From Solibacillus merdavium (GTDB lineage: Bacteria; Bacillota; Bacilli; Bacillales_A; Planococcaceae), in the NCBI RefSeq assembly GCF_014836935.1, contig NZ_JACSPW010000004.1, positions 62,001 through 126,000 on the forward strand: 64,000 bases of DNA, in the 5' to 3' direction. Below the pieces are notes generated by a model that made no database searches, was not told the origin of the DNA, and saw nothing but the letters and a program-made list of their open reading frames with translations. The translations under genes were made by a program, and so were the position numbers. This document shows positions 14,809-54,802 of this stretch, one piece after another. Each line of letters opens with the position of its first letter. Position 1 is the stretch's first letter.

Positions 14809-14982
14809 TTCTAATATAATCAAATTTCCTTCTAATATAATTTTATATTTTCTAATAAACCTCGGATTTTCTAATAAAATATGTACATCTTCTAATATAA
14901 GATCTCCGTTTTCGAATATACTATTCAGACCTGCTAATAACCTTAAAAGTTTTCTAATAACTACACAATATGTTCTAATAAA
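14809..14982. repeat. 21-bp-period array, nine copies of TTCTAATAWA with variable spacers
   Basis: The 10-bp core begins at 14809, 14830, 14850, 14869, 14890, 14911 (TTCGAATATA), 14932 (TGCTAATAAC), 14952 and 14973. Steps are 21, 20, 19, 21, 21, 21, 20 and 21. Spacers share no sequence. The array lies in a non-coding gap downstream of the rpmE terminator and upstream of the tdk hairpin. On the minus strand, the direction of rpmE, the core reads TWTATTAGAA. The arrangement is not CRISPR-like (core too short) and not a simple tandem duplication, because spacers differ. Function unknown. Confidence 0.85.
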
Positions 14983-15010
14983 ATTATTTTACTCATTATA
15001 AAAATCAAAA

Positions 15011-15040
15011 AACCCATCTCCAACAACGTGGAAATGGGTT
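15011..15040 (-). terminator. Intrinsic terminator of rpmE
   Basis: AACCCAT (15011-15017) and ATGGGTT (15034-15040), extended inward by TCCA/TGGA. TTTTTTGATTTT follows on the minus strand. Confidence 0.9.
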
Positions 15041-15046
15041 AAGGTA

Positions 15047-15247
15047 TTATTTCATACCATATTTTTTGTTGAACTTATCAACACGTCCGTCAGCAGAAGC
15101 GAACTTTTGACGACCTGTGTAGAATGGGTGACATTCGTTACAGAACTCGATTGAGATCTTTTCTTTAACTGAACCTGTTTCAAAAGAATTACCACAAGAG
15201 CAAGTTACTGTTGCTACTTTGTAATCTGGGTGGATACCTTGTTTCAT
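15047..15247 (-). CDS. rpmE: 50S ribosomal protein L31 (zinc-binding form)
   Basis: 66 residues. Cysteines in VTCSCGNSF and [15 protein letters not shown] form the zinc site of the C+ paralogue, as opposed to the zinc-independent YtiA type used in zinc starvation. L31 bridges the ribosomal subunits at the central protuberance. It has its own promoter, a structured leader and a terminator, so it is monocistronic between rho and tdk. Confidence 0.97.
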
Positions 15248-15375
15248 ATTCGTTTTCTCCTCTCGCCCTGAACCATCCGGAACAGAGTATTTTCGAACTG
15301 CACCTTACATAGCCCGAATATGTCACTACATACGTAATGTGTTGAGGTCAGCTATATATGTGCACGTTTCATACC
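15248..15375 (-). ncRNA. Structured rpmE leader (candidate L31 autoregulatory leader)
   Basis: About 128 nt lie between the predicted start site and rpmE. GCAC at 15360-15363 on the minus strand can pair with GGUGC near 15300-15304. An adjacent 7-bp stem (AUAUAGC with GCUAUGU, one G-U) encloses a further small hairpin. L31 leaders are a described class of ribosomal-protein leader RNAs, including a Firmicutes form. I have not checked this one against a covariance model. Confidence 0.45.
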
Positions 15376-15381
15376 TAATGA

Positions 15382-15410
15382 ATTATAGCAACAATTAAAA
15401 TAGGTTGCAA
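15382..15410 (-). promoter_or_regulatory. Promoter of rpmE
   Basis: -10 TATAAT (complement of 15382-15387) is preceded by TGC (extended -10), with a 17-bp spacer to -35 TTGCAA (15405-15410). Confidence 0.75.
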
Positions 15411-15432
15411 CTATTTTTTACTAAGTAAACGA

Positions 15433-16716
15433 TTATAATAACCCTTTACCGTTCGTTGCCTTTTTCATATCTGTATCTAGCTTTTCGAAAAATTCTTCGT
15501 TTGATTTCGTAGTGCGTATTTTACGTAAAAACTTCTCGCCGAAATCATGGGAATCACTAAATGTTTTACGGATTGCCCATAACTTATCCAACTGATCTTT
15601 TGGAATAAGAAGCTCTTCTTTACGCGTACCCGAACGGCGGATATCCAATGCAGGGAATATACGGCGCTCTGCCAAGCTACGGTCTAAGTGTAATTCCAAG
15701 TTACCCGTTCCTTTAAACTCCTCGTAAATCACTTCATCCATACGGCTACCTGTTTCGACAAGAGCAGTCGCCAAAATTGTTAAACTACCACCCTCTTCGA
15801 TATTACGAGCCGAACCGAAGAAACGTTTTGGACGATGGAATGCAGCTGGGTCAATACCCCCTGAAAGTGTACGGCCACTTGGCGGAATGACTAAGTTGTA
15901 AGCACGTGCTAAACGCGTAATTGAATCCATTAAAATAATTACATCTCGCTTATGTTCTACTAAACGTCGTGCACGTTCCAGTACAATTTCCGCTACTTTT
16001 ATATGGTTTTCCGGCACTTCATCAAAAGTGGATGAAACAACATCTGCATTTACTGAGCGCTCGATATCCGTTACTTCCTCTGGACGCTCATCAATTAATA
16101 ATACGATAAGTTCCGCTTCCGGATGATTTGTCGTAATGGCATTGGCAATTTCCTTTAATAAAGAAGTTTTACCTGCTTTTGGCGGTGCTACAATTAATCC
16201 ACGTTGACCAAATCCAACAGGAGCTACTAAATCCATAATTCGTGTTGAAAGTTTTGCAGGTACTGTTTCCAATTTAATATGACGGTCCGGATAAAGCGGC
16301 GTTAATGCAGGGAAATGCACTCGCTCTTTGGCTACTTCTGGATCTTCGCCATTTACTGCATCAACTTGCAATAATCCATAATAGCGTTCATTTTCTTTTG
16401 GCGGACGAACCTTTCCTGATACTTTATCTCCATTTCGCAAATCAAAACGACGAATTTGCGACGCTGAAATATAAATGTCCTCTTTCGAAGGGGAATAGTT
16501 AATCGGGCGTAAAAATCCGAAGCCATCCGTAGGAATGATTTCTAAAACACCTTCCATGAAAAAGAAGCCTTCCTGTTCAGAGCGTGATTTTAAAATTGCA
16601 AAAATAAGTTCCTTTTTATTTAGCTTACTAGCATTCATTACTTTAAATTGCTTCGCTAAAGCATATAATTCTTTTAATGTCATGCTTTCTAATTGAGCAA
16701 TGGTTAATGCTGTCAT
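15433..16716 (-). CDS. rho: Transcription termination factor Rho
   Basis: 427 residues from the ATG at 16714-16716, which has GGAG 7 nt upstream and yields the normal Rho N-terminus [21 protein letters not shown]. The longer open frame has no homology. An N-terminal helical domain and cold-shock-like RNA-binding domain (GFGFLRP) precede the hexameric ATPase core with Walker [12 protein letters not shown] and Walker [17 protein letters not shown]. It terminates non-coding and antisense transcription. It lies between glpX and rpmE as in B. subtilis. Confidence 0.97.
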
Positions 16717-16812
16717 AGGTTTTCTCCAGTCTATTAATAATTTAAATTTTTGGGCTTTTACATGTAGAAAATTTAGGAATGTGCGTTGGAAGAAGATTAA
16801 TTTATTTGAAAG

Positions 16813-16836
16813 ATGCCCGGCTATTATACCGGGCAT
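16813..16836. terminator. 8-bp perfect hairpin between glpX and rho
   Basis: ATGCCCGG (16813-16820), loop 8 nt, CCGGGCAT (16829-16836). The tail on the minus strand is only CTTTC, so termination after glpX would be weak. It may instead be part of the rho leader. Confidence 0.45.
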
Positions 16837-16903
16837 TTATTATATAATATCGTAAATTAAATGAAAATGGGCATTTTCTATGTTAATTACAATATATGAG
16901 AAG

Positions 16904-17869
16904 TTAGAGTTGACCGTACTTTGGCTTTTTGTCAATGCTGTGGCGCCCTTCGATAAAGCGTACTGTACCAGTTTTTGCGCGCATAACAACCGAATGTGTC
17001 AGTGCATAGGAACCTTTATATTGAACACCACGTAAAAGTTCTGAGTCAGTAACAGCTGTTGCTGCAAAAATTGCATCGTCGCCCTTAACTAAATCTTCCA
17101 TCATTAACACTTTATCTACGTCGATCCCCATCTTTTTGCAACGTTCCAGCTGTTCTTCATCTTCCGGAACTAGTTTAGCTTGGAAATCGCCACCTAAACA
17201 TTTTAAAGCTACAGCTGCGATAACACCTTCTGGAGCGCCACCCATACCAAACATAATGTCGATACCTGTTTCGTCAAAAGCTGTATTAATCGCAGCGGCT
17301 ACATCGCCATCTTGGATAAATTTAATACGAGCACCTGTTTCACGGATTTCATCAACAATATGCTGATGACGAGGACGATCTAAAAGAGTTGCTACGACAT
17401 CAGAAACATCTTTATTTTTTGCCTTCGCTACTTGCAGTAGGTTATAAGTAACAGATGCGTTAATATCAACTTTACCTGCTGCTTCTGGACCTACTGCAAT
17501 TTTATCCATATACATATCCGGTGCGTTTAAAAGGTTCCCACGGTCTGCAATAGCCAGTACAGTCATCGCGCCATTTGTTCCTTTTGCTACGATATTCGTA
17601 CCTTCTAATGGATCCACTGCGATATCAACTTCAGGTCCGCCATTTCGAAGCCCTAATTCTTCACCGATATAAAGCATCGGTGCCTCATCCATTTCTCCTT
17701 CGCCAATTACAACTGTCGCATGCATTGGGATTGTATCAAACATAACACGCATCGCTGTTGTTGCTGCGTCATCTGCTTCATTTTTAAGTCCGCGTCCCAT
17801 CCATTTCGCTGATGCAATCGCTGCTGCTTCTGTTACACGTACTACTTCCATTGATAAACTACGTTCCAT
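16904..17869 (-). CDS. glpX: Fructose-1,6-bisphosphatase class II (GlpX)
   Basis: 321 residues. It hydrolyses fructose 1,6-bisphosphate for gluconeogenesis. Family markers are ASAKWMGRG near residue 17, [13 protein letters not shown] near 56, the metal-binding DPLEGTN near 86 and [12 protein letters not shown] near 208. GGAGG lies 10 nt before the ATG. B. subtilis YwjI occupies the same site. With fbaA, transaldolase and rpiB in the same stretch it forms part of a central carbon neighbourhood. Confidence 0.95.
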
Positions 17870-18021
17870 TTTGTGTTTGCCTCCTGTAATCGGGTAAAGC
17901 CGATTTTAACAGCATTAAAAACCGCTGTTTTGTAATTGTATAATTTACTTACTATTTTTTTCGAATTTAATTTTAACATATTTTAAAGGTGCGCTAATTT
18001 GCTCATCAATTATGGCAAATT

Positions 18022-19299
18022 TTATGCTTTATTATTCGTATTAATGACAGATGACTCTTTTCGGATATTTGCACCTAATGCACATAACTTTTCAATTAAT
18101 GAACTATACCCACGCTCTATATGATGAATATCATGAATTTCTGTCTCGCCTTTTGCAATTAAACCGGCTAAAACCAATGCTGCACCTGCACGCAGGTCTG
18201 TTGCTGTTACTGCCGATCCTTCTAAAGAAACAGGTCCTTGTATAATTGCCGTATTTCCTTCTACTCGTGCTTTTGCACTCATGCGACGTAATTCATCAAT
18301 ATGTTTGAAGCGTGCAGAATAAATTGTGTCCGTTATCATTGAAGTACCTTCTGCCTGAGTCATTAATACAGATAATGGTTGCTGTACATCGGTTGGAAAT
18401 CCTGGATATACAAGTGTTTTAACATCAACTGCTTGTAGGTTCGTTTGCTTTGGAATGTACATGCTTTCTTCGTTTTCTTCTACAATTACGCCCATTTCAC
18501 GAAGCTTCGCTGTCACTGCCTCTAAATGCAGGGGAATAACATTATCTATTACTACACCATCACCAATTGCCGCTGCCATTATCATAAATGTTGCAGCTTC
18601 AATTCGATCTGGAATAATCGTATGTTTTGTTCCTTTTAGCTCATCGACGCCTTCAATACGTATAACACTCGTTCCAGCACCTTTAATATTGGCACCCATA
18701 TTAGTTAAAAGTGTCGCAACATCAATAATTTCAGGCTCTTTAGCAGCGTTTTCAATAGTAGTTTTACCTTTTGCCCGCACTGCAGCCAGCATAATATTAA
18801 TTGTCGCCCCTACACTAGCCACGTCTAAATAAATTTTTGCACCGATCAATTCATCCGCACGCAAATAAATTGCACCGTGCTCATTCGTCACTTTTGCGCC
18901 TAACGCTTCAAATCCCTTAATATGCTGATCAATTGGACGTGGGCCTAAAAAACAGCCTCCTGGCAAACCAATAACAGCTTGCTTAAAACGTCCTAACATT
19001 GCACCCATCATATAGTAGGATGCCCGTAATTTTTTTACATTGCCATTAGGAAGTGGCATTGCTACCATTTTTGAAGGATCGATTGTCATCTTTCCATCTT
19101 CAAACGTTACTTCGCCACCGATTTCTTCCAACAGTGCTTTTAATGTCCACGCATCCGAAATCTCTGGAATTCCTCCAATTGTAACGGAAGAATCCGCCAA
19201 AATTGATGCAGGAATTAAAGCAACTGCACTATTTTTTGCACCACTAACAGTAATTTTCCCTTTTAGTCGACGTCCGCCTTGAATTTTAAATACATCCAT
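18022..19299 (-). CDS. murA: UDP-N-acetylglucosamine 1-carboxyvinyltransferase
   Basis: 425 residues from the ATG at 19297-19299 (GGGAG 8 nt upstream). It transfers enolpyruvate from PEP to UDP-GlcNAc, the first committed step of peptidoglycan synthesis. K22 in SGAKNS and the fosfomycin-target Cys116 in [13 protein letters not shown] are intact. By position beside glpX and the transaldolase it corresponds to the second Firmicute paralogue (MurAB/MurZ of B. subtilis), not the one beside atpC. Confidence 0.95.
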
Positions 19300-19363
19300 T
19301 TTGTGTTCTCCCTTATAATTGGACAAATTTCACAATGAACCAGATTGCTGTGAAGTATTCTTA

Positions 19364-20014
19364 TTATTTCCCTTCACGCTTTGCCCAATCCGCTAAAAAT
19401 CCTTCAATTCCTTTGGCTGTTAATGGATGGTTAAACAGTTGCTGTAAAACTTTGTATGGTGTCGTTGCAATATGGGCACCTGCCAATGCAGCTTGCGTAA
19501 TATGTTGTGGATGACGAATAGAAGCAGCAATTATTTCAGTATCAATCTCATGGATTGCAAACATTTCAGCAATTTCACGAATTAATTCAACACCGTCTTG
19601 ACCAATATCATCTAAGCGTCCTAAAAATGGAGATACATATGATGCGCCAGCACGAGCGGCCATTAATGCTTGGTTTGCAGAGAAAATTAATGTCACATTT
19701 GTTTTAATCCCTTTTTCAGAGAAGTGTTTACATGCTTTTAAACCGTCTGGAGTCATCGGCAGTTTTACAGTGATATTTGGATGAATCGCTGCTAATTCTT
19801 CCCCTTCACGAATCATTCCTTCAGCGTCTAAAGAGATAACCTCACCAGACACCGATCCGTTTACTAATTCCGCGATTTCACGTAAGCGATCGTGGAAATT
19901 TACACCTGATTCTTTTGCTACTAATGATGGGTTCGTTGTTACACCTGAAAGAATCCCCCAAGAGTATGCTTCTTTAATCTCGTCAAAGTTTGCTGTATCA
20001 ATAAAAAATTTCAT
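19364..20014 (-). CDS. tal: Transaldolase (fructose-6-phosphate aldolase family)
   Basis: 216 residues, the short transaldolase subfamily (YwjH of B. subtilis, 212). [16 protein letters not shown] at the start, [12 protein letters not shown], and the Schiff-base lysine in ITVKLPMT identify the TIM-barrel enzyme. It transfers dihydroxyacetone units in the non-oxidative pentose phosphate pathway. Whether it is transaldolase or F6P aldolase cannot be decided from the sequence alone; context with rpiB and fbaA favours transaldolase. Confidence 0.93.
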
Positions 20015-20050
20015 TATATGTCCTCCGATTTATGTGTACTTAGAAAAACA

Positions 20051-20076
20051 CATCCCGCCCAATTGTGAACGAGATG
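20051..20076 (-). terminator. Intrinsic terminator after fbaA
   Basis: RNA stem CAUCUCG/CGGGAUG with one G-U pair (complement of 20051-20076), followed by TGTTTTTC on the minus strand. Confidence 0.65.
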
Positions 20077-20152
20077 CTTGAAGTTGAAAACAAGTGTTCA
20101 CAAAGAAAAGTGCGCTACTATTGCCCATTTCTTTTGTGGAATCATTTATTTG

Positions 20153-21007
20153 TTAAGCTTTCCCCGCGCTACCGAATTCACGCATTTTTCCGATTACTGT
20201 TGCTTTAATCGCTTCACGAGCCGGGCCTAAATATTTGCGTGGGTCATATGTTTTCTTGTCGCCATCCAAAAATTCACGGATTACTTTAGTCGCCGCGATT
20301 TGATTTTCTGTATTTACGTTAATTTTAGCTGTACCTAAAGAGATAGAACGTTGAATATCCTTTGTTGGAATTCCAGTACCACCATGTAAAACTAAAGGTA
20401 CATCCGTCAGTGTAGAAATTTCTTCCATTTCAGTGAAACCTAAGTTTGGTTCCCCTTTATAAGGACCGTGAACTGAACCTAGTGCAGGTGCCAGGCAATC
20501 AATTCCTGTAGCTTCCACTAAAGCTTTACACTCTTGTGGATTTGCATACATAATACCACCGATAACACCATCTTCTTCTCCACCTACAGTACCCAATTCA
20601 GCCTCTACAGAAACACCTTTTGCATGTGCATATTCAACAACTGTTTTTGTCGTTTCTACATTTTCTTCGTATGGATGATGGGAAGCGTCAATCATAACAG
20701 AAGTAAAGCCAGCATCGATTGCTTCTTTACATTTATCGAAGCTCGAACCATGGTCTAAATGAATGGCAACTGGAACTGTTGTTTTATAGCTTTCCATTAA
20801 GCCCTCAACCATTTTTACAACAGCGATGAATCCGCCCATATATTTACCGGCACCTTCAGAAACACCTAAAATAACCGGTGATTTTTCTTCTTCTGCTGCC
20901 TGTAGAATAGCTTGTGTCCACTCTAAGTTGTTAATATTGAACTGACCAACTGCATAATTTTCTGCTTTTGCTTTAATTAACATTTCTTTCATTGAAACTA
21001 ACGGCAT
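20153..21007 (-). CDS. fbaA: Fructose-bisphosphate aldolase class II
   Basis: 284 residues. It cleaves fructose 1,6-bisphosphate in glycolysis and runs in reverse for gluconeogenesis. Zinc and substrate ligands are visible in [10 protein letters not shown] near residue 80, [15 protein letters not shown] near 178 and LHGGTGIP near 208. The ATG is preceded by GGAGGA. It is followed by a terminator and lies downstream of spo0F, as in Bacillus. Confidence 0.97.
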
Positions 21008-21157
21008 TATTAAAATCCTCCTCGAAGATACATAAATAGTTTGCTACTAGAAAAACGTAGTTTGTGCATTATGCTTTTTTTAAGTAATTTTTCTATTGTC
21101 AATTCTATGCAAGTTCACATGAATTGATAAAAACATTCAGATTAATCATAACAAAAA

Positions 21158-21180
21158 CAGACAGTATGCGCTACTGCCTG
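21158..21180 (-). terminator. Intrinsic terminator of spo0F
   Basis: Nine-bp stem CAGACAGTA (21158-21166) with TACTGCCTG (21172-21180), one G-U in RNA. TTTTTGTT follows on the minus strand. Confidence 0.8.
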
Positions 21181-21193
21181 CTCACGGGTTCAT

Positions 21194-21571
21194 TTATATT
21201 TTTTCGTGAATCTTTAATATTTTTTTTACTTCATCACGTATTTCAAATATATTGAATGGCTTAGAAAAGTACTTTGTCACACCTAGTTCTGTTGCGGTAT
21301 CAATCATATGTTGTTCAACGTACGCTGTCATCATTATAACCGGTAAGTAGGAATTTTTGCTTTTTAGACGAGCTAATATTTCCAATCCATCCATTCCAGG
21401 GATTTTCATATCCAACAAAACGCAATCTACTGCATTTTCCTCTGCTATTTTTAATGCATCATAACCGTTTGCAGCCAAATGTGTTATAAATCCTTCTTTT
21501 TTAAATAATTCATTTAACAGTAACCTTATTCCTCTTTGATCATCTACGATTAATATTTCCCTCATAGTCAT
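21194..21571 (-). CDS. spo0F: Sporulation phosphorelay response regulator Spo0F
   Basis: 125 residues, a single receiver domain without output domain. The phospho-acceptor is D54 in LLDMKIPGMDG. The acidic pocket D10/D11, T82 and K104 are all present, and numbering matches B. subtilis Spo0F exactly. It takes phosphate from Kin sensor kinases and passes it to Spo0B, then Spo0A, to start sporulation. A sigma-H promoter lies upstream. It is divergent from ywjG. Confidence 0.96.
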   Translation of the reverse strand: MTMREILIVDDQRGIRLLLNELFKKEGFITHLAANGYDALKIAEENAVDCVLLDMKIPGMDGLEILARLKSKNSYLPVIMMTAYVEQHMIDTATELGVTKYFSKPFNIFEIRDEVKKILKIHEKI

Positions 21572-21604
21572 TCCCCATTTACGATATTGATTTTATATTA
21601 CTAA

Positions 21605-21631
21605 ATTCAATTTTTATCTTTTTTTTCCTTC
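21605..21631 (-). promoter_or_regulatory. Sigma-H promoter of spo0F
   Basis: Minus strand: -35 GAAGGAAAA (complement of 21623-21631) fits RnAGGAWWW. -10 ATTGAAT (complement of 21605-21611) fits RnnGAAT. The spacer is 11 bp. Sigma-H control of spo0F is known in B. subtilis. No convincing 0A box was seen nearby. Confidence 0.75.
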
Positions 21632-21700
21632 TTTTACAATAAGTATATACGATTTTGCTTTTTCTTGAGCACAATTTTATAATAGCTTTGAGGTGAAATT

Positions 21701-22264
21701 ATGTCTAAAATTTTAACTACTCAATTAACAGGGCTATTTCAGCGCATTCAACAGTCCGAAGAAGAGCCTATTGAGGAAACAGCCCGTTTATTGGCACAGG
21801 CAGCTATCGGGCAAGGAACTATTTACTTTGCTGCTTTTGGTGAAATGGAAGCTGTCACAATCCATGCAGAGCTTGGTGCCAGTCCTTTTGCAAAATTTGC
21901 TCGTTATACGGATGAGGTTGAGCTGTTGCCTGCTGATCGTCTCATTATTTTTACGCAGCACGCTACGGATGAACAAGCGTTAAAGCTCGCGCAAAAACTG
22001 CATGATAACTTTATTCCCTTTGCAGCTGTGGCAAGTGAGGTTGCTGAGACTGGCAATCTTTTAAGCGAGCTTGCATATACTTATATTTCATTAAAAGTAC
22101 GTGGTGGAATTTTACCCCATCCAACCAATCTTGGTGAGCGAATCGTATTCCCTCATTTAATGGCTGCTTTATATATTTATGAGGCGATTAAAATGGAATT
22201 TGATGAAATGCTGGTCGATGATGACGAAGATGAAGAAGAGGAATCTATTTCTCCTTTTGCTTAA
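21701..22264 (+). CDS. ywjG: DUF2529 protein (YwjG)
   Basis: 187 residues, a SIS-like sugar-phosphate-binding fold protein of unknown function found beside spo0F in Bacillales. It has no obvious catalytic motif. The C-terminus ends in an acidic tract (residues about 172-182). GAGGTG precedes the ATG at suitable distance. It is transcribed alone, divergently from spo0F and convergently with pyrG, with its own terminator. Confidence 0.88.
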   Translation: MSKILTTQLTGLFQRIQQSEEEPIEETARLLAQAAIGQGTIYFAAFGEMEAVTIHAELGASPFAKFARYTDEVELLPADRLIIFTQHATDEQALKLAQKLHDNFIPFAAVASEVAETGNLLSELAYTYISLKVRGGILPHPTNLGERIVFPHLMAALYIYEAIKMEFDEMLVDDDEDEEEESISPFA

Positions 22265-22269
22265 CTAAT

Positions 22270-22310
22270 AAACGATTCTTATTACGTTTCACTACGTATA
22301 GGGATCGTTT
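22270..22310 (+). terminator. Intrinsic terminator of ywjG
   Basis: AAACGAT (22270-22276) with ATCGTTT (22304-22310), extended inward by T-G and C-G pairs. TTTTAC follows. Confidence 0.7.
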
Positions 22311-22324
22311 TTTACTTTTAAAAA

Positions 22325-22354
22325 AAGCGTGCCCCATTTAAATAGGACACGCTT
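22325..22354 (-). terminator. Intrinsic terminator of pyrG
   Basis: AAGCGTG (22325-22331) and CACGCTT (22348-22354), with a T-run on the minus strand after the hairpin. Confidence 0.85.
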
Positions 22355-22362
22355 CTGAACTG

Positions 22363-24140: not shown

Positions 24141-24149
24141 AAGTAAAAG

Positions 24150-24176: not shown

Positions 24177-24206
24177 GTACTTTCAATTTTCCAATTGAAA
24201 CACTAA

Positions 24207-45775: not shown

Positions 45776-45783
45776 TTACTTAA

Positions 45784-45815
45784 AAAGCGAGCGACAGAAA
45801 TTCGTCGCTCGCTTT
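45784..45815. terminator. Bidirectional terminator between the GGDEF gene and speB
   Basis: AAAGCGAGCGAC (45784-45795) and GTCGCTCGCTTT (45804-45815), T-rich on both sides. Confidence 0.92.
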
Positions 45816-45825
45816 ATTTTTATCC

Positions 45826-46698: not shown

Positions 46699-47028
46699 TT
46701 ACAATCACCTACAACTTTCTCTATTTTAAATTATCAATTATAAATAAATTTGTTCTTAATTTCGTATGCATAGCGAACGGTGATTTTGCTCATACTAAAT
46801 CTAACAAATGAAACTTTTGATCGCTATTTTCGTATAATTAAGTATAACTGACAAAATTCGACATTATGAATACGTATTGTCATAGCAGAATAAATGCTTA
46901 CTTCCATTTAATGTGCTACGACAAAAGTATAGTTGTTTTCATTAAAAGTGCAATAGAATTTTTGTAACTTTTTGTGAATGAACGAAAACTTTTTACTAAC
47001 TACTAAAAAAGAAATGAGGTGAAAAAAC
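46699..47028. other. Divergent intergenic region speB / pbpG
   Basis: 330 bp without a credible gene. It must hold the promoters of both divergent genes. A minus-strand TATAAT near 46738 could serve speB. B. subtilis pbpG is sigma-F dependent; a GTATA at about 46926 has the right look for a sigma-F -35 but I could not find a matching -10. Nothing else stands out. Confidence 0.4.
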
Positions 47029-49086
47029 TTGAAAAGACAGCAATATAAAAAACGAAAAAGCCGTAAAAGATTTATGAAAAAAATAGGTCTCGTTACTATT
47101 GCCCTTTTATGTTTTTTCGCTGTAACGTTCCTTTCATTGCGTATATATGCACAAGTTGCTGGAGCACCTCCACTTACGGTCCCGAAAGCTTCGATTTTTT
47201 TGGATAGCGACAATAATCAAATTGGCGATTATTTCACCGAGGAGCGTCGCTATTGGACAGAATTGAATGATATTTCACCTTATTTAGTTGATGCTACAGT
47301 TGCTGTTGAAGATAAAGATTTCTTTAATCATAGTGGTTTTGACTATTCCCGTATTGCTGGAGCCGTCTTAGCGGATCTTAAAGCGGGAAGCAAAGTCCAA
47401 GGAGCAAGTACGCTCACACAGCAATATGCTCGGAACCTTTATTTAACCCATGAAAAAACATGGAACAGGAAAATAAATGAAGCCTTATTCGCCTACCGTT
47501 TAGAGTTATTTTACTCAAAAGAGGAAATTTTAGAAGGTTATTTAAATACTGTTTACTACGGTCACGGAATGTACGGCGTAGAAGCTGCGAGTCGTTATTT
47601 TTACGGCAAATCAGCAAAGGATTTAACATTGGCGGAAGCTTCCATGCTTGCCGGTGTTCCAAAAGGACCGACTTATTATTCGCCACTAAATAATTTAGAA
47701 AAGGCGACTAATCGTCAGCACGTTATTTTACGATTAATGAATGAGCAAGGAAAAATTACAGACGATGAAAAAACACGCGCTACGACTGAACAGGTCGCAC
47801 TAAAAAGTGATCAATGGATTGCGACAAAATCGATTGCGCCTTACTTTTTGGATGTTGTTTGGGAAGAAGCAAGTGATATATTACAATCCAAAAACCTAAG
47901 TATTAGTGAAGGTGGCTGGACAATTCAAACCACCCTGAACCAGGCACATCAGCGCGCAGCGGAAAATGCCATTAAAACGAATATGCCCAATAGTGATTTG
48001 CAGGTTGGTTTTGTCAGTATGGATGCACATACTGGTTTTGTAACAGCGCTTGTTGGGGGGCGTGATTATAGTGAAAGTTCCTTTAACCGAGTCGCCTTGG
48101 GAAATCGTCAGCCCGGCTCTGCCATCAAGCCGATTTTATACGCAGCTGCCCTTGAAAAGAATTTTCACCCTATGTCATTTTTGGATGTCAGTGAAACAAC
48201 ATTCACCTATGATAGTGGACGAGCAACTTATACGCCACAAAACGTTAACAACAAATTTGCAGACCATGCACTTTCATTAGCTCAAGCATTGGCTATTTCA
48301 GATAATATTTATGCAGTAAAGACATTGGAAGGAATCGGCTACCGTTCTTTCCGCGATATTCAAAAACGCTTTGGACTTCAATATTCTGAAAAAGATATAC
48401 CGTCTATTGCATTGGGGACCGCTGAAAATTCGTTGTACGATTTAACAAATGCGTATAACATCCTTGCAGCTGGTGGAGAAAAGAGAAAACCAGTGACCGT
48501 ATTATCTATTATCGATGCAAAAGGGAAAGTCGTTTATAAATATAAGAAGCCTGAGAAAGAACAGGTAATTTCCGAACAGGATGCTTTTGTTCTAACACAA
48601 ATGATGACAGGAATATTCGACCCTGTATTCAGTGATTATTCCCCTGCAACCGGTCTATCACTGCGCTCTAGAATGTCCCATACGTATGCAGCAAAATCAG
48701 GGACAACTAACAGTGACCAGTGGATGATTGGCTTTACACCCAGTTTGACTGCCGGTGTATGGAATGGCTATGACCAAGGGAAGACACTATCTGTCCAGGC
48801 AGATATGGCAGCTTCTAAACAAGTGTGGATTGAATTTATGGAAACCGCCCTTAATGGAAAGGCAAACGAAACTTTTAAAATACCAAGTGGAGTCGAGCCT
48901 GTTACGGTCGATATTCTGAGTGGTAAGTTAGCCGATCCCTCTTGTCCGAACCAGCGTGTCGTTTATATGAAAACAGCAGATATTCCTACTGAATCCTGTG
49001 GAACATTCGATTTCTTCGACACAGATACATGGGGTAATTTCTTTGAAACATTACCCTTCGAAGCATTCAAAGGTTTTTGGGACTAA
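47029..49086 (+). CDS. pbpG: Class A penicillin-binding protein (PbpG-like)
   Basis: 685 residues. TTG at 47029-47031 has GAGGTG 7 nt upstream. A basic cytoplasmic start is followed by one membrane anchor (about 17-40). The transglycosylase domain has VEDKDFFNHSGFD and GASTLTQQYARN. The transpeptidase domain has active Ser in GSAIKP, SDN in ISDNIYAVK and KSGTTN. It polymerises and cross-links peptidoglycan. Position beside ywhD/ywhB matches B. subtilis pbpG (YwhE), which acts in spore peptidoglycan. Confidence 0.93.
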   Translation: MKRQQYKKRKSRKRFMKKIGLVTIALLCFFAVTFLSLRIYAQVAGAPPLTVPKASIFLDSDNNQIGDYFTEERRYWTELNDISPYLVDATVAVEDKDFFNHSGFDYSRIAGAVLADLKAGSKVQGASTLTQQYARNLYLTHEKTWNRKINEALFAYRLELFYSKEEILEGYLNTVYYGHGMYGVEAASRYFYGKSAKDLTLAEASMLAGVPKGPTYYSPLNNLEKATNRQHVILRLMNEQGKITDDEKTRATTEQVALKSDQWIATKSIAPYFLDVVWEEASDILQSKNLSISEGGWTIQTTLNQAHQRAAENAIKTNMPNSDLQVGFVSMDAHTGFVTALVGGRDYSESSFNRVALGNRQPGSAIKPILYAAALEKNFHPMSFLDVSETTFTYDSGRATYTPQNVNNKFADHALSLAQALAISDNIYAVKTLEGIGYRSFRDIQKRFGLQYSEKDIPSIALGTAENSLYDLTNAYNILAAGGEKRKPVTVLSIIDAKGKVVYKYKKPEKEQVISEQDAFVLTQMMTGIFDPVFSDYSPATGLSLRSRMSHTYAAKSGTTNSDQWMIGFTPSLTAGVWNGYDQGKTLSVQADMAASKQVWIEFMETALNGKANETFKIPSGVEPVTVDILSGKLADPSCPNQRVVYMKTADIPTESCGTFDFFDTDTWGNFFETLPFEAFKGFWD

Positions 49087-49092
49087 AAATAA

Positions 49093-49140
49093 AAAAGCTC
49101 TTTCGTTTCCGGTTCTAGTCCGTAAAACGAAAGAGCTTTT
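49093..49140 (+). terminator. Intrinsic terminator of pbpG
   Basis: Sixteen-bp arms AAAAGCTCTTTCGTTT (49093-49108) and AAACGAAAGAGCTTTT (49125-49140); A/T rich on both flanks, so it may work in both directions. Confidence 0.92.
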
Positions 49141-49417
49141 CTATTGTGGTTAACGAAAGGATGAGAACCATGGGGCATTCGGCTTGGGAATGTTCAAATG
49201 CCGCATAATACTCATCACTATTCATTTCCCACATGTCCTAGCCTACTACTTTGCAAGCTTTAAATTCAGTTTACTTTCTTTTGGAAGCAGTTTCAACCAT
49301 CGATTTGGATGTTCTTGAAATGTCACATATTGTTCACCGAATGGATTCATTTTTCCAAAAAAGTAATTGACTGACCATAATATTTATTTGTACTTTATAT
49401 TTAACCTATAAGTAATT
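49141..49417 (-). pseudogene. Possible decayed gene between pbpG and ywhD
   Basis: Two coding-like stretches on the minus strand, in different frames and broken by stops. One opens after a stop near 49385 and reads on through ATG at 49349-49351 (MNPFGEQYVTFQEHPNRW and onward to TAG near 49246). Another reads MWEMNSDEYYAAFEHSQAE from about 49234. Neither has a proper ribosome site. B. subtilis carries ywhC between ywhD and ywhB, but I see no resemblance to it. Identity unknown; it may be chance. Confidence 0.25.
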
Positions 49418-49479
49418 TTACGCTAAATCATTTACTAATTTTTCATCGCTATTGTTCCACATTTCTTCATTGTGGTTTT

Positions 49480-49929
49480 TCAGGAAGTCAGCCAATATTT
49501 TTTTGATGGTGCATCCATATGGTCGACGATGATTTGGCGCTTCATTGATTTATCCATTCTGTTTACATGATCCGCCAATATTTTATAACCACGGCGCTTT
49601 TCACGGTTTACAACCATCTCACACGCAGTTACGCCTGCAAAGTAGGCACCGGATTCATTATGATCAATCGTTACCCATACTAACCAGTAATTTTTTCCGC
49701 CTGCTGAGTCTTCTCGGTTCGTTGTAAATTTAATGCCACGCTCCACTTCACTTTTTGCATGCATTGCGCCAATATCAACAATTGCTGTTCCTTCTGCGAC
49801 ATCGACAATAACTGGCGATACATTTTCCAGAGATAGTGAGCCAATGCCAAAACCTTTATGCCCATCAGTTGGATCATTCTTAATAATCGTAAAACCCATT
49901 TTTGGTTGAGATTTTTCTTCATTTGCCAT
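49480..49929 (-). CDS. ywhD: YwhD family protein, C-terminus frameshifted
   Basis: 149 residues in the open frame from ATG at 49927-49929 (GGAGG 8 nt upstream). The YwhD family is of unknown function and about 172 residues in B. subtilis. At a run of seven A on the coding strand (complement of 49498-49504) the frame passes to a premature TGA. In the -1 frame the reading continues ILADFLKNHNEEMWNNSDEK to a TAA at 49418-49420, which would give 170 residues, the family length. This is a one-base indel, an assembly error, or slippage at A-AAA-AAA. Confidence 0.85.
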   Translation of the reverse strand: MANEEKSQPKMGFTIIKNDPTDGHKGFGIGSLSLENVSPVIVDVAEGTAIVDIGAMHAKSEVERGIKFTTNREDSAGGKNYWLVWVTIDHNESGAYFAGVTACEMVVNREKRRGYKILADHVNRMDKSMKRQIIVDHMDAPSKKYWLTS

Positions 49930-49994
49930 TGTAAATACCTCCAAATACGCTAATATAAATACTATACACTATATTTTACCTAGGAGGCGACTTT

Positions 49995-50180
49995 ATGCCA
50001 ATCGTTACAATTAAAATGGTTGAGGGGCGTACAGAAGAACAAAAGCGAGCGCTTGTAGAAGAAGTTACACAAGCCGTTTCAAAAACAGTCGACGCACCAG
50101 TAGAAAATGTATCCATTATTATCGAAGAAATGTCTAAAAACCACTTTGCAAAAGGTGGCGTGCGATACAGCGACAATTAA
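49995..50180 (+). CDS. ywhB: 4-oxalocrotonate tautomerase family protein (YwhB)
   Basis: 61 residues. Pro1 after Met removal is the catalytic base (MPIVTIKMVEGRTEEQ), and the Arg residues at about 11 and 39 region fit the 4-OT fold. YwhB of B. subtilis has tautomerase and weak dehalogenase activity; the physiological substrate is unknown. TAGGAGG precedes the ATG. Divergent from ywhD with 65 bp between starts. Confidence 0.93.
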   Translation: MPIVTIKMVEGRTEEQKRALVEEVTQAVSKTVDAPVENVSIIIEEMSKNHFAKGGVRYSDN

Positions 50181-50230
50181 TCCGTCCTATATTCAACCGA
50201 TTATGCAGTACACAATTAAAATGGCGACGC

Positions 50231-50267
50231 AAAAGGGATGAATCTGTAATTTGATTCATCCCCTTTT
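50231..50267. terminator. Bidirectional terminator between ywhB and ywfO
   Basis: AAAAGGGATGAATC (50231-50244) with GATTCATCCCCTTTT (50253-50267), one-base bulge. It abuts the stop codon of the convergent HD gene. Confidence 0.9.
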
Positions 50268-51575
50268 TTAAACACTTTCAATTAGCCTCTGTATTTCTTG
50301 TCGTAACGTTTCCGGAATGTTCTCGTCTATCAATAACTCCTCCGGGTAGTAAACTTTATGGTCCACTTTTATACGGCCGGCAATCGCCTCAACTATTTGA
50401 CTTTCCTCTGATAGCTCTCGTTGCTCCCCATCTTGCATAAGTAGGTAAATCGGCTTTTTCGTCCCTTCAATTCCAGGTCGGTAGAAGTCATAAGGTAAGT
50501 CCGATGTGGAATCATGCACTAAATAATAATCCGGGTCCATATCCGCCTCTATAAATAGGCGACGCAGTTCTGCGTAAACTTCGGGTTGCTTAAAAGGGTT
50601 GAGATTCGTATATTGAAACAATTTCCGATTAACAAATCTTCTACATAGATCACGTAAAATCCGATCCTCTTCCTGCATCCAAAATTGGAAGTATGCGAGC
50701 ATAATACTTTCATCTAATGCTATATAATCTTCCAAAGTTACGTTTCCCTTGAAAAAAGCAATAAAAGGTGATGGCTCATATTTAAATGCATAATTATTCG
50801 CACATAACACTTTTACCCGCTTTAAAATATTATTGAGTACAACTTCTGCACTGCGCGATACAGGATGGAAGTAAATTTGCAAATACATTTGATAGCGGCT
50901 CATAATATAATGCTCTACTGCATGCATTCCACTTTCTTTTATAACGACGCCATTTTCGCGGGGACGCATAACACGCATGATGCGCTCCATATCAAAATGA
51001 CCATAGCTAACGCCTGTATAATAGGCATCACGCTGTAAATAATCCATTCGATCGGCGTCAATTTGGCTTGAAATTAAGCTGACAACCAATTCGTTAGGAT
51101 ATGTTTTTTCTATCACTTGGGCAACTTTTTCAGGGAAGTCTTGTGAAACTCGACGAAGCACTGCGTTCACTTCTGTCTCCCCTAATAAAATTTGACGTGT
51201 AAAATATTCATGATCGGTCTCAAATACATTCTCAAAGGCATGGGAAAACGGACCGTGCCCTAAATCATGCAATAGCGCTGCACATAACACGAGTAATCTC
51301 TCAGATTCGTCCCATTCTTTTCTTCCTCTGAATACATCATCTACAATACGGCGTACAATTTCGTACACACCCAATGAATGATTAAAGCGGCTATGCTCCG
51401 CTCCGTGGAATACTAAATATGTAGTACCAAGCTGTTTAATACGGCGCAGTCTTTGAAATTCTCTTGTTTTTATCAAATCCCAAATCACTTGATCCCGAAC
51501 GTGGATATAACGATGGACAGGGTCTTTAAAAACTTTTTCCTCTAGCAGTTTTGTTTTTGCATATGTCGTCAACAT
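50268..51575 (-). CDS. ywfO: HD-domain nucleotide phosphohydrolase (YwfO, dGTPase-like)
   Basis: 435 residues. The metal site is formed by HSRFNHSLGV, LLHDLGHGPFSHAFE and the Asp in SQIDADRMDYLQRDA, as in dNTP triphosphohydrolases of the SAMHD1/EF1143 group. The family hydrolyses dGTP or other dNTPs, often allosterically. The C-terminal 100 residues are less conserved. AAGGAGG lies 6 nt before the ATG. Position beside rsfA matches B. subtilis ywfO. Confidence 0.92.
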   Translation of the reverse strand: MLTTYAKTKLLEEKVFKDPVHRYIHVRDQVIWDLIKTREFQRLRRIKQLGTTYLVFHGAEHSRFNHSLGVYEIVRRIVDDVFRGRKEWDESERLLVLCAALLHDLGHGPFSHAFENVFETDHEYFTRQILLGETEVNAVLRRVSQDFPEKVAQVIEKTYPNELVVSLISSQIDADRMDYLQRDAYYTGVSYGHFDMERIMRVMRPRENGVVIKESGMHAVEHYIMSRYQMYLQIYFHPVSRSAEVVLNNILKRVKVLCANNYAFKYEPSPFIAFFKGNVTLEDYIALDESIMLAYFQFWMQEEDRILRDLCRRFVNRKLFQYTNLNPFKQPEVYAELRRLFIEADMDPDYYLVHDSTSDLPYDFYRPGIEGTKKPIYLLMQDGEQRELSEESQIVEAIAGRIKVDHKVYYPEELLIDENIPETLRQEIQRLIESV

Positions 51576-51766
51576 AGCCGACCTCCTTATCCCTTTTTCT
51601 TATTATAAGTGAGTTCTCAATGAAATAGAAATGAATCCATTAGGCAAAAAGCATAATTGTTTTCATGTACAAAAAATTATTGATAAGTATACTTCATCTG
51701 CAAAGCCCTTATAAATGCGAAAAGGACTTGTTCTGAAAATCATTTCAGGACATGCCCCCTACGTCG

Positions 51767-51991
51767 TTACTTTTTTAGTTTGTCGAGTACCTTTACCATT
51801 AACTCCTCTTCAGTTAACGCGGCAACTGGACGATTGTTTACAAATGTGAATGTTTTTTTGCGGCCTGGACCACAGTATGAATGACAGCCAATTTCAATCG
51901 TTGCTTCTGGATCAATTTCTTTTAATTTTGGAATTAACGTCTTTAAATTAACGGCCTGACATTCATCGCAAACGTGAAATAAGTTTGCCAT
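51767..51991 (-). CDS. DUF1450 family small cysteine protein
   Basis: 74 residues with cysteines in HVCDEC near residue 8-11 and GCHSYCGPG near 36-40. This is the DUF1450 (YuzB-like) family with a thioredoxin/ferredoxin-like fold and no known function. The four Cys suggest a redox or metal site. Monocistronic between ywfO and rsfA; a weak hairpin near 51735-51755 may terminate it. Confidence 0.85.
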
Positions 51992-52213
51992 AGTGTCAAC
52001 ACCTTTCCCTTAGCTATTTTAACCTATTTGTTATTGTATCTCATATTGCATATTCCATTCAAGCATATACTAGCAATTCCGTCAAAGGTCTGATAGGAAT
52101 ATATTTCTCATTATTCTATCAACAATTTACGATATATTGAATAAATGTTTTCCCCTTTGGACATGATAGATTTACAACAACAAAACTATGAATAAGATCA
52201 GGGGGAGTTTTTT

Positions 52214-52855
52214 ATGACAAAAACAAGACAAGATGCGTGGGTAAAAGAGAATGACGAGTTATTGGCAGAAGCTGTTTTGCGCCATGTTAAAGAAGGAAGC
52301 ACACAGCTTAATGCTTTTGAAGAAGCTGGTGATCTATTGAATCGAACAGCTGCAGCGTGTGGTTTCCGCTGGAATGCAGTAGTACGACGTATTTATGAAG
52401 AAGATTTAGCACAGGCGAAAAAGGAACGTAAAGAACGTATGCGTATGATGAATACGGCAACAAAGCGCAGAACGTCACCTTTATATTTAATGCCTTCTAA
52501 TGAGAGCCAGCCGACGTCAATTCCACTATCAGCTTTATCACTGGATATCGTCATTGCATACTTAGTAAAATTGCAACATACGAATTCAAATGAGCAAGAT
52601 TTAGTGAAGTGGCGCAAATTAACATCACTATTAACGGAACAAAAGAATCAGCTTGAACAACAATTGGCTGCACTTCAAAAAGAAAACAAAGCGATTAAAG
52701 AAGATTACGAGCAATTTGTATCTATTATGAATCGCGCAAGAAGACTTGTGGCACTAGAAGATTCAGAGCCAAACGCACCGACGTTCAAAATGGAGCGAAA
52801 CGGAAACTTAGTTTCCCAGTCATCACTAAATGATTCAGGCGAAGCGCTATATTAG
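52214..52855 (+). CDS. rsfA: RsfA family prespore transcription regulator
   Basis: 213 residues. The N-terminal Myb/SANT-like domain (about 1-60) has RQDAWVKENDELLAEAVLRH and CGFRWNAVVRRIY. A long coiled coil (about 135-175) follows. In B. subtilis RsfA is made under sigma-F and tunes sigma-F genes in the forespore. GGGGGAG precedes the ATG. The C-terminus overlaps the 5' arm of a terminator. Confidence 0.92.
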   Translation: MTKTRQDAWVKENDELLAEAVLRHVKEGSTQLNAFEEAGDLLNRTAAACGFRWNAVVRRIYEEDLAQAKKERKERMRMMNTATKRRTSPLYLMPSNESQPTSIPLSALSLDIVIAYLVKLQHTNSNEQDLVKWRKLTSLLTEQKNQLEQQLAALQKENKAIKEDYEQFVSIMNRARRLVALEDSEPNAPTFKMERNGNLVSQSSLNDSGEALY

Positions 52856-52865
52856 CACCTCGCCT
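52837..52865. terminator. Terminator between rsfA and lipL
   Basis: AGGCGA (52837-52842) and TCGCCT (52860-52865) with TTTTT after on the plus strand; the 5' arm lies inside rsfA. Confidence 0.7.
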
Positions 52866-52868
52866 TTT

Positions 52869-53696
52869 TTATTTGTTTAACATTGATTCATTGCGCTTCA
52901 ATACGCGCTGTAAATAATATTCGTATAATTCCATTTCACTTTTCTGCAATGGTTGTTCATTTACCTTCCCATTCCAGTGGTTCAATAGCTTGCGTAGGCG
53001 TTCATTTACTTGGGATACAGTTATGCTTTGTCCTGTAAGCTCCTGTAATGAAGCCATTACGTCCGGTTTAATGTCCGGATATTGAAATTTTGTTACCTCG
53101 CCTTTTAGACCTGCCTCGTAAAATTGCTTAATCAGCTCTGCCCGTTCACTTCCGCTGCCTTCTACACATAAGTAAATTTGTACAGCAATGCCATTTTTCA
53201 TGCGGCGTTGTGATATTCCGGCAAACTTTTTACCATCGATACTTAAATCATATGAACCTGGGCAATACGAGCCGACAACTTCATATGCTTCTATTTTAGT
53301 TGCGACTTCTGGAAAAAGCTGTCGAATCAATTCGACCATCATTTCAAAAGCGTTATTAATACTAAGCGGTTTGTCTTCCCCGATGACAATGGAAATATTC
53401 AGCACTCCCGCATCCAATACAACGGCTAATCCTCCTGAATTCCGGACAATCGGTTTATGGCCATGCATTATTAATGTCTGCATTCCTTGTTCTATATACG
53501 GCAATCGGTGGTCCTGGATACCCAACACGACTGAATCGTAATGCACCCACGTACGAAGTGTTGCATCTGACATGAGCTGTCCTACAAGATGGCAAAGTGT
53601 GTCATCCATCGCGAATGACTCTAAAGGTGAGCGTTTATTCGCACTAATCGATTGATCAACGAAACGCCACTTCGTTTGTTTTAAAATTTCGTTCAT
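52869..53696 (-). CDS. lipL: Octanoyl-[GcvH]:protein N-octanoyltransferase (LipL)
   Basis: 275 residues, biotin/lipoate protein ligase fold. RNSGGLAVV near residue 85 is the ligand loop. The nucleophilic Cys in GSYCPGSYDLS and the Lys in GKKFAGISQRR fit the amidotransferase LipL, which moves octanoyl groups from GcvH to E2 subunits, rather than LipM. The position beside rsfA (ywfL in B. subtilis) supports this. Confidence 0.88.
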   Translation of the reverse strand: MNEILKQTKWRFVDQSISANKRSPLESFAMDDTLCHLVGQLMSDATLRTWVHYDSVVLGIQDHRLPYIEQGMQTLIMHGHKPIVRNSGGLAVVLDAGVLNISIVIGEDKPLSINNAFEMMVELIRQLFPEVATKIEAYEVVGSYCPGSYDLSIDGKKFAGISQRRMKNGIAVQIYLCVEGSGSERAELIKQFYEAGLKGEVTKFQYPDIKPDVMASLQELTGQSITVSQVNERLRKLLNHWNGKVNEQPLQKSEMELYEYYLQRVLKRNESMLNK

Positions 53697-53784
53697 ATAA
53701 ATACTCCTAGCTTAATTTCTCTTCACTTTAGCATACCTCAATTCAAAGTGATGTCAAATTGGTGAAAATATCGAATATGCGAGG

Positions 53785-53838
53785 TTGAAATGATTTTTTT
53801 TTACTGATTTATGCTACACTAACTGTGAATCATTTTCA
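53785..53838 (+). promoter_or_regulatory. hemQ promoter region with Fur/PerR-like box
   Basis: Extended -10 TGCTACACT (53812-53820), with TTGAAA at 53785-53790 as a distant -35. TGTGAATCATTTTCA (53824-53838) matches the 7-1-7 Fur/PerR palindrome at 11 of 14 arm positions and would overlap the start site. Regulator assignment is inference. Confidence 0.4.
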
Positions 53839-53860
53839 TTTACAAGGAGTGTTTAAGCAC

Positions 53861-54598
53861 ATGAATGAAGCAGCAATTACTTTAGATGGCTGGTATGCAT
53901 TACATGATTTCCGCTCAATTGACTGGGCATCATGGAAATTAGTTTCAACTGAAGAACGCGAAGCCGCTACGAAAGAATTTATCGCATTTTTAGAAGACTT
54001 AAATAAAGATACAGGTTCAAATGCTTTCTACTCTATTATTGGTCAAAAAGCAGATTTCATGATGATGACATTACGCGAAACACCGGAAGAATTAAGCGAA
54101 ATCGAAACAAAATTTGCTAAACTGGCAATTGCAGATTTCACTATTCCAACTTATTCTTACGTTTCGATTGTAGAATTATCAAATTACCTAGCTGGGAAGT
54201 CGGATGAAGATCCTTACCAAAACCCACATGTACGTGCACGTTTATATCCTGAATTGCCAAAATCAAAATATGTTTGCTTCTATCCAATGGATAAAAAGCG
54301 CGATGGCAATGACAACTGGTACATGCTTACGATGGACAAGCGTCGTCAATTAATGCATTCTCACGGACTAATCGGACGTAGCTATGCAGGTAAGATCAAA
54401 CAAATCATTACTGGTTCAGTTGGATTGGACGACCACGAATGGGGCGTAACATTATTCTCTGATGATATGCTAGAATTCAAAAAAATTGTTTACGAAATGC
54501 GCTTCGATGAAGTATCAGCCCGCTATGGCGAGTTTGGTGAGTTCCTAGTAGGTAACTTATTAGACAACGAAAAACTAGAAAAATTATTAGCGATTTAA
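53861..54598 (+). CDS. hemQ: Coproheme decarboxylase HemQ
   Basis: 245 residues from ATG at 53861-53863 (AAGGAG 11 nt upstream). Chlorite-dismutase fold. The radical Tyr141 and Lys145 lie in [10 protein letters not shown]. The proximal His is H168 in [14 protein letters not shown]. It decarboxylates two propionates of coproheme III with H2O2 to make heme b, the last step of the Gram-positive pathway. In B. subtilis ywfI is its counterpart. A terminator and then the second 21-bp array follow. Confidence 0.95.
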
Positions 54599-54607
54599 TA
54601 CTGATGT

Positions 54608-54659
54608 ACCCGTTCACCCTTGATTATTGGTTATCCCATCTTCAAGTGGCTGAACGGGT
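54608..54659 (+). terminator. Intrinsic terminator of hemQ
   Basis: ACCCGTTCA (54608-54616) and TGAACGGGT (54651-54659), then TTATTTTTATT. An inner CTTGA/TCAAG pairing is possible. Confidence 0.85.
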
Positions 54660-54665
54660 TTATTT

Positions 54666-54775
54666 TTATTGGACATCTTTCTATCGATATTCGTCAATCG
54701 TCCATACTTATTCGCCACTACCCCATACATAATCGACACTTTGTGATGTATATTCGTCATTTCAAAGCAGTTATT
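54666..54775. repeat. 21-bp-period array, six copies of WTATTCGYCA with variable spacers (approximate right end; last core ends 54780)
   Basis: Cores begin at 54666 (TTATTGGACA), 54687 (ATATTCGTCA), 54708 (TTATTCGCCA), 54729 (ATAATCGACA), 54750 (ATATTCGTCA) and 54771 (TTATTCGCCA). Every step is exactly 21 bp: a 10-bp core plus an 11-bp non-conserved spacer. The array starts 6 bp after the hemQ terminator and ends about 20 bp before the terminator of the convergent small gene. No ORF with a ribosome site is present. Same architecture as 14809-14982, with a different core. Confidence 0.85.
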
Positions 54776-54802
54776 CGCCAACGGCTTCATCCCTAAAACG
54801 GA

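Follow-up and report, generated by a model that had tools for sequence, protein, structure and literature searches.

Repeat arrays of two helical turns at gene ends in Solibacillus merdavium: a dispersed family with the layout of a possible protein platform

Tandem repeats with a unit of 20-21 nt, constant in size and variable in sequence, have been described in Bacillus (Subirana and Messeguer, 2021; PMC8161180). In the available part of that paper they are non-coding, occur many times per genome and form species-specific families with a short conserved sequence; the unit is equated with two helical turns, a nucleoid protein or a small RNA is suggested, and the function is left open. Extracts of two related papers deal with the transcription of a 52-nt repeat class (PMC8625621) and with earlier background on such repeats (PMC6749651). 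Direct repeats in one or more blocks also make up the plasmid partition centromeres of the parC/ParR and tubC/TubR systems, where, according to the accessible portion of the source, a protein polymer forms, the DNA is wrapped and a loop lies between blocks (PMC5016525). The present analysis concerns two repeat arrays, one between rpmE and tdk and one 3' of hemQ, in a stretch of 64,000 nt from Solibacillus merdavium (the window, G000:C43:62001-126000, G000 being the 3.78-Mb genome to which it belongs). Repetitive extragenic palindromic (REP) sequences and bacterial interspersed mosaic elements (BIMEs) offer a further comparison: REPs are palindromic, BIMEs alternate in orientation, and these extragenic sequences, of species-specific sequence and with about 100 or more copies, are possibly architectural.

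Both window arrays are members of one dispersed chromosomal repeat family, far from chance:

14809..14980, minus strand: array 1, nine cores of the TATTAGAA type (class A), between rpmE and tdk (core scan)
54667..54780, plus strand: array 2, class B, six cores of the TATTCGYCA type, 3' of hemQ (core scan)

On a judgement that leans slightly past even, the element is a double-stranded DNA platform on which a protein assembles along a single helical face. The support consists of a common site sequence, block sizes of four and nine in array-rich relatives, fixed steps, quantised gaps, slowly changing sites and positions at gene 3' ends.

The family has two core classes, A (TATTAGAA) and B (TATTCGYCA), with one common layout of nine cores in a single orientation, separated by five steps of 21 bp (sometimes 20) and then by steps of 19, 20, and 20 or 21 bp. 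These patterns were read from 34 stretches of G000, fetched at places among the matches listed; arrays with fewer cores or with 21-bp steps only also occur (e.g. L041, L044, L045, L063 and array 2, which is a shorter six-core form of the shared layout). The odd 19-bp step stands at the same unit position in class A and class B arrays, and several class A places match the class B model in register, with weak E-values (best 3.9e-6); both observations sustain the claim of an earlier note, made from the window alone, that the two arrays are one class of element. The period of 21 given there holds exactly for array 2, the first core of which is degenerate (TATTGGAC), but not for array 1, whose steps (21, 20, 21, 21, 21, 19, 20 and 21 bp) include lengths of 19 and 20, so that its spacing is not 21 throughout. 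The sequence-only models R1 (class A, from 20 sequences) and R2 (class B, from 7 sequences) match array 1 at G000:C43:76802-76982 (E 4.7e-25) and array 2 at G000:C43:116660-116782 (E 5.6e-14), respectively, and each gives 44 rows in G000 at E 1 or less, the R2 counts including class A places that cross-match. When G000 was searched for three TATTMG cores at 21 bp, with up to 2 mismatches tolerated, 198 overlapping matches were obtained versus 28 for the reversed pattern; together with the model matches, this shows that a genome-wide scan finds further arrays beyond these two.

How far the period itself stands out was seen in a lag scan of about 206 kb of non-coding DNA, made up of the window and 80 tdk loci fetched regardless of arrays. 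At 45/84 or more, lag 21 gave 15 hits (2 in the window and 13 in 8 of the 80 tdk loci, 4 of the 13 in L163), the harmonic lag 42 gave 9, lag 52 gave 15, and any other lag from 9 to 60 gave 0-2; at 50/84 or more, there were 9 hits in 7 sources at lag 21 and 13 in 3 sources at lag 52. Samples of 400 kb scanned at 43/84 or more yielded 13 lag-21 hits in G158 and none in G157 (both sampled at fixed 180-kb steps), while G000, sampled on its larger contigs at roughly even steps that were set after the hit lists were known, gave 6 hits at lag 21 and 6 at lag 51, the lag-51 hits belonging to the other published repeat class. Only the 51-52-bp period was thus found as often as 21 (15 versus 15 at lag 52, 6 versus 6 at lag 51), other lags of 9-60 giving 0-3 apart from the harmonic 42. 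Arrays of period 51-52 were seen in G000 at L249:17748-17965, L250:5273, L258:3218, L260:8567 and L262:6905; they consist of imperfect dyads of the type AATAACGG...TTCCSTTATT and represent, in the same genome, the second published constant-size class. As far as the available part of the 2021 paper goes, the 52-nt class has in common with the present family a constant size near whole helical turns; its G000 units, however, resemble imperfect dyads that span about 5 turns and not direct 2-turn repeats.

A second block, of four cores, lies upstream of the nine and was first noticed in stretches of G158. Blocks and gaps were then counted in 80 stretches from four array-rich relatives (G158, G155, G163 and G159), chosen as stronger matches to the nine-core model; this sampling favours block size nine in the counts, while the four-block and the gap lay outside the search model. 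Among 172 blocks, 72 had four cores and 87 had nine, the others having three (3), five (7), six (1), seven (1) or ten (1). The upstream neighbour of the 88 nine- and ten-core blocks, counted within 23-140 bp, was a four-core block in 61 cases, one of three or five cores in 7 and one of nine in 2; 18 had none. The 89 inter-block gaps measured 38-39 (3), 49-50 (5), 59-61 (3), 71-72 (17), 80-82 (56), 91-92 (4) and 132 bp (1). The preferred lengths, about 39, 50, 60, 71, 81 and 92 bp, are one helical turn apart, and of the gaps of 60-100 bp, 77/78 fall at 70-73, 80-83 or 90-93. The best period of the gap lengths is 10.5 bp (R 0.93); when seven gap-length classes, with centres fixed after inspection of the data, were placed at random, 27 of 20000 placements equalled the observed fit within 9.8-11.2 bp.

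The aligned 81- and 82-bp gaps (10 and 7, respectively) are without clear common sequence. A gap with no conserved sequence but a set helical phase points to proteins that contact a single face of double-stranded DNA. Core positions in 24 elements with 4+9 cores follow 10.30 bp per turn (R 0.898), and nine-blocks alone 10.25, against about 10.5 in the gaps, which would suit DNA that lies against a protein within the blocks and is unconstrained between them. Eight flank groups contain unequal gaps: four differ by 1 bp, two by about one turn (82/72; 81-82/71), one by larger amounts (82, 50 and 132), and one mixes many loci. Whole elements were also seen duplicated in tandem, in L223 (period about 345 bp), L214 (about 235), L056 and L060.

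The same geometry bears on the improbable reading that the repeats are transcribed and act as RNA, be it as a small RNA, a sponge or a Rho-type terminator. The arrays do sit downstream of genes, and the 2021 paper, in the part available, proposes transcription, with RNA-seq support for the 52-nt class (PMC8161180). Single-stranded RNA, however, gives no reason for a turn-quantised, unconserved gap, and the orientation of the arrays relative to neighbouring genes is inconsistent. Folding of 30 of the 44 nine-blocks gave z values close to 0 for either strand (0.57 and -0.15, versus shuffles), and an Rfam search of eight G000 loci returned one match, below the gathering score; on these negative folding and Rfam results an RNA element was rejected. 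Gyrase wrapping and Rho (rut) sites were considered too but not taken up as readings.

Comparison of orthologous arrays tells which part of the repeat is kept. At the rpmE-tdk junction a nine-core array is present in 8 of 16 genomes (with one weak core in G155), G162 has four cores and seven genomes have none. Across seven aligned species, mismatches amount to 50/1512 in cores (0.033), 471/2094 in spacers (0.225) and 734/4968 in flanks; without G000 the figures are 31/1080, 283/1500 and 353/3630. G152 was excluded from both alignments, and core columns were defined from one species. Similarly, a second locus compared in four species shows 6/432 in cores (0.014), 136/603 in spacers (0.226) and 419/1817 in flanks, and its upstream block, also in four species, 3/192 (0.016), 77/234 (0.329) and 481/2426. 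Spacers of orthologous arrays thus change roughly 6 to 20 times faster than cores.

This difference speaks against the idea that the arrays are products of neutral slippage or remains of coding repeats, the least credible of the readings considered here. In its favour, 21 is divisible by three, tandem duplications are seen, and two or three short open reading frames (ORFs) were called over or touching G158 arrays. Spacers nevertheless change far faster than cores, no reading frame could run through steps of 19 and 20 bp, a stop-free frame exists in 7 of 44 nine-blocks, and the 37 G000 arrays that were scored have no called ORF over them. Coding repeats were accordingly rejected, on the 19/20-bp steps and the stop codons.

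The main rival is a repeat family that tolerates only gene-end places. It would be selfish or passively mobilised, in the manner of miniature inverted-repeat transposable elements (MITEs): its geometry would reflect mainly common descent, gene ends would be where it does least harm, and cores would be retained because the copying machinery needs them. We regard this as rather unlikely on its own terms; it is compatible with the protein platform. In its favour, at the hemQ junction a class B array is present in 2 of 16 genomes, with six cores in G000 and decayed to three in G152, and the other 14 have none of four or more cores. In six close species the two terminators at this junction are directly adjacent, so that the array was most simply gained in the G000/G152 lineage; the weak runs of three cores 3' of hemQ in G150, G151 and G163 are read as chance. 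Spacers at the same unit of different copies are also more alike than spacers at different units (0.446 versus 0.351), match numbers are bimodal in the genus, and whole elements are duplicated in tandem. On the other side, cores and phase are kept in orthologous copies, and neither a terminal repeat nor a target duplication was evident by eye in a filled/empty comparison at one junction. The flanks of the 44 nine-blocks have no strong consensus terminus. No linked transposase was noticed, though no search aimed at transposases was made. BLAST gave no match for one class A element in plasmids or phages, nor for one class B cluster in plasmids, in searches run with no positive control and able to detect only close copies. 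The earlier suggestion of locus-specific cores copied within an array is likewise not supported: the cores are class-wide, unit 9 being TATTAGAA in 44/44 class A nine-blocks (G158 and G155), and what varies from locus to locus is the spacers.

With respect to neighbouring genes, called by a simple ORF scorer, the 37 G000 arrays comprise 14 in convergent, 19 in tandem and 3 in divergent positions and 1 with no second neighbour in its stretch. Convergent regions account for 11.6% of intergenic bases and 14/36 arrays, an enrichment (p 2.5e-5 by bases, 3.3e-4 by counts), and tandem-gene positions are below expectation (p 0.015 and 0.047, respectively), while divergent depletion is not significant among these arrays (p 0.26). 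At 37 of the 48 gene ends that face an array a terminator-like hairpin stands in between, versus 1.0 in shuffles; a comparison of this kind, made with shuffles, does not imply enrichment. The orientation of G000 arrays relative to neighbouring genes varies. The earlier description of the elements as dispersed, intergenic, helically phased and near terminators is supported by these data. An association with replication direction, on the other hand, did not appear: among 150 matches listed from four genomes (405 matches were counted in a search that listed part of them), 84 are co-oriented and 66 anti-oriented.

By map position from dnaA, 52/150 of these listed matches fall at 0.7-0.9 and 10/150 at 0.5-0.7. 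In G158, G155, G159 and G163 the class A elements listed are concentrated at about 0.74-0.83 of the map, the G158 clusters lying at 2.66-2.73 Mb and 2.88-2.90 Mb, and an excess of plus-strand matches was seen in the listed set on both replication arms.

The distribution of class A in the genus is bimodal, with 36-111 R1 matches in 8 of 16 genomes (G000 36, G152 36, G153 93, G154 61, G155 82, G158 95, G159 101 and G163 111) and 0-3 in the other eight, counted at E 1e-4 with up to 150 candidates scored per genome. R2 matches number 4-27 in the eight class A-rich genomes, part of them being class A places, 12 in G160, 3 in G156 and 0-1 in the rest. Twelve R2 matches stand beside one R1 match in G160, so that classes A and B may occur apart. 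Across the taxonomic family, 55 of 261 genomes have R1 matches at E 0.001 when no more than 10 candidates are scored in each. Beyond the genus the matches weaken, and some represent a different type of sequence, e.g. L082, which resembles a coding heptad repeat. At the tdk loci of named relatives, lag-21 hits occur in 8 of 80, with cores that vary between species. Arrays of 21 bp with other cores were noted in L088, L092, L098, L099, L101, L111, L115 and L163, from named Lysinibacillus, Psychrobacillus-like, Chryseomicrobium, Ureibacillus and Bacillus records, and six of these eight loci have one immediately after tdk.

Set against the available text of PMC8161180, the family agrees with the published class in its length of 20-21 nt, with at least four repeats and at least 60% of them of one length within 1 nt, as judged from nine-block steps and the window arrays and not by the authors' program. 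It agrees, too, in having a short characteristic sequence and several families per genome (classes A and B in one genome), in being species-specific in sequence and constant in size (other cores at the 21-bp lag in 8/80 named loci), and in being non-coding (7/44 nine-blocks stop-free; 37 G000 arrays without a predicted gene). The broad class is therefore already in print and not 'previously unnamed', as the earlier note had it. Absent from the part of PMC8161180 available are the 4+9 layout, the 19-bp step, the quantised gap, the comparison of cores and spacers between orthologs and the statistics on gene ends and terminators; in the present family, moreover, two core classes share one layout. 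The 4+9 layout and the turn-quantised gap were not found described in the open-licence literature searched.

REPs and BIMEs share with the family a high copy number and extragenic placement at gene ends (36-111 class A matches in eight genomes; gene context in G000). The core is not palindromic, however, and forms no hairpin unit (fold z near 0, 30/44 blocks), and in place of alternating orientation the 37 scored arrays are each one run on one strand, core chains having been built per strand with no opposite-strand run listed at the same place. The cores are phased by the helical turn, in a single orientation.

Plasmid partition centromeres of types Ib, II and III share the blocks of direct repeats, and their split iteron blocks and wrapped segrosomes are, on the portion of PMC5016525 at hand, the closest mechanical precedent. 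That a centromere of this kind, bound by a protein resembling ParR or TubR, was relocated to the chromosome is nonetheless very improbable. Centromeres occupy one locus beside their own operon, whereas here 36-111 dispersed chromosomal matches occur with no known operon, i.e. tens to a hundred sites and not one. ALP_N, the actin-like partner, was found in 6 of 16 genomes and is missing from the array-rich G154, G158 and G159, and a partition system of this type II motor family was rejected as a correlate of array-rich genomes; ParR, TubR, TubZ and Omega were not searched.

On the platform reading, each element would present about 6-13 near-identical sites, each about 12 bp long (WTATTAGAANAW in class A), that share their orientation and their face of the helix. 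A putative sequence-specific protein would bind these sites side by side and might join the four-block and the nine-block into one wrapped or rod-like nucleoprotein complex. Less firmly, such a complex at gene ends could form a boundary that pins supercoils or stops read-through between neighbouring, often convergent, genes. A comparable boundary role has been proposed for BIMEs. Boundary formation or nucleoid folding at gene ends would be the most likely use of the element, a weaker step of the argument, and the elements themselves would behave as a repeat family that spreads and turns over.

Several observations weigh against this account. No binding protein was identified and no linked DNA-binding gene was found, and the boundary function is something that we infer. 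A self-comparison of long ORFs for a large, internally repetitive DNA-binding protein (in the window, L031-L064, L199-L204 and L245-L304) gave candidates whose first residues suggested surface, peptidoglycan or other ordinary proteins; similarly, no obvious candidate emerged from the first residues of genes lying within the densest cluster of the relative G158. The 70 elements reduce to 24 flank groups, one of them with 19 elements that are not necessarily orthologous, and counts are not independent because class A copies share descent. The orthologous gap change to 132 corresponds only roughly to whole turns. In G000, most nine-blocks lack the four-block, as do both window arrays, and of five gaps (28, 40, 40, 40 and 69 bp) those of 28 and 69 are off the lattice. 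Eight of 16 species are almost without class A matches and the G157 sample had no lag-21 hit of any core, which makes the element dispensable. The use of shuffles alone at the facing gene ends counts here as well.

A more specific version goes beyond the platform and is offered tentatively, as a possibility that falls short of probable. The family would be a chromosomal code for a defined nucleoprotein particle, in which an element of about 310 bp, with 4+9 cores on one helical face kept in register across a gap that changes by whole turns only, is occupied by a protein with lineage-specific sequence preference; as many as about a hundred gene ends per genome would in this way be marked as boundaries or as points of nucleoid folding. 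If this is true, the constant size of 20-21-nt repeats across Firmicutes, which has been published as unexplained, would have a structural basis. The 4+9 layout, the whole-turn gaps and the slow cores make for a testable claim, that a protein reads sites on one face of double-stranded DNA. The 4+9 element could serve as a defined bait for this protein, and the eight array-rich and eight array-poor species of one genus as a natural series for finding its gene.

In the window, the arrays are flanked by the following hairpins and genes:

15011..15040, minus strand: intrinsic-terminator-like hairpin after rpmE, before array 1 (hairpin scan)
14677..14704, plus strand: terminator-like hairpin that flanks array 1 on the side away from rpmE (hairpin scan)
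54608..54659, plus strand: hairpin after hemQ, before array 2, with arms 54608-54616 and 54651-54659 (by eye)
54803..54836, minus strand: terminator-like hairpin after array 2 (hairpin scan)
15047..15247, minus strand: rpmE, upstream of array 1 (name from the earlier note)
14070..14645, minus strand: ORF downstream of array 1 that we take to be tdk (thymidine kinase)
53825..54598, plus strand: hemQ, upstream of array 2 (name from the earlier note)

The placement of each array after one hairpin and before another, as first described, was confirmed for both; the hemQ-side hairpin has a long loop, is absent from the scan output and was recognised by eye. The unit intermediate between the two cores that had been pointed out in array 1, TATATTCGAA, is present as well, sixth along the plus strand and fourth counting from rpmE. 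Neither window array was reported by Tandem Repeats Finder at a score of 30 or more. The closest Tdk matches among named records are 90% identical (Bacillus ndiopicus and a Metasolibacillus metagenome-assembled genome), records of the window's own genome having possibly been excluded. A stretch like AATAGACGAAT...TAGCTAAGATAAAAGAAG occurs upstream of tdk in about 12 of 16 genomes by eye (L165-L180) and is perhaps the tdk promoter. Between array and tdk, L166 (G152) carries an additional block that starts near AGGCTGGGACATAA and has a palindrome near its end; by eye, among the 16 rpmE-tdk junctions compared, this block is particular to G152.

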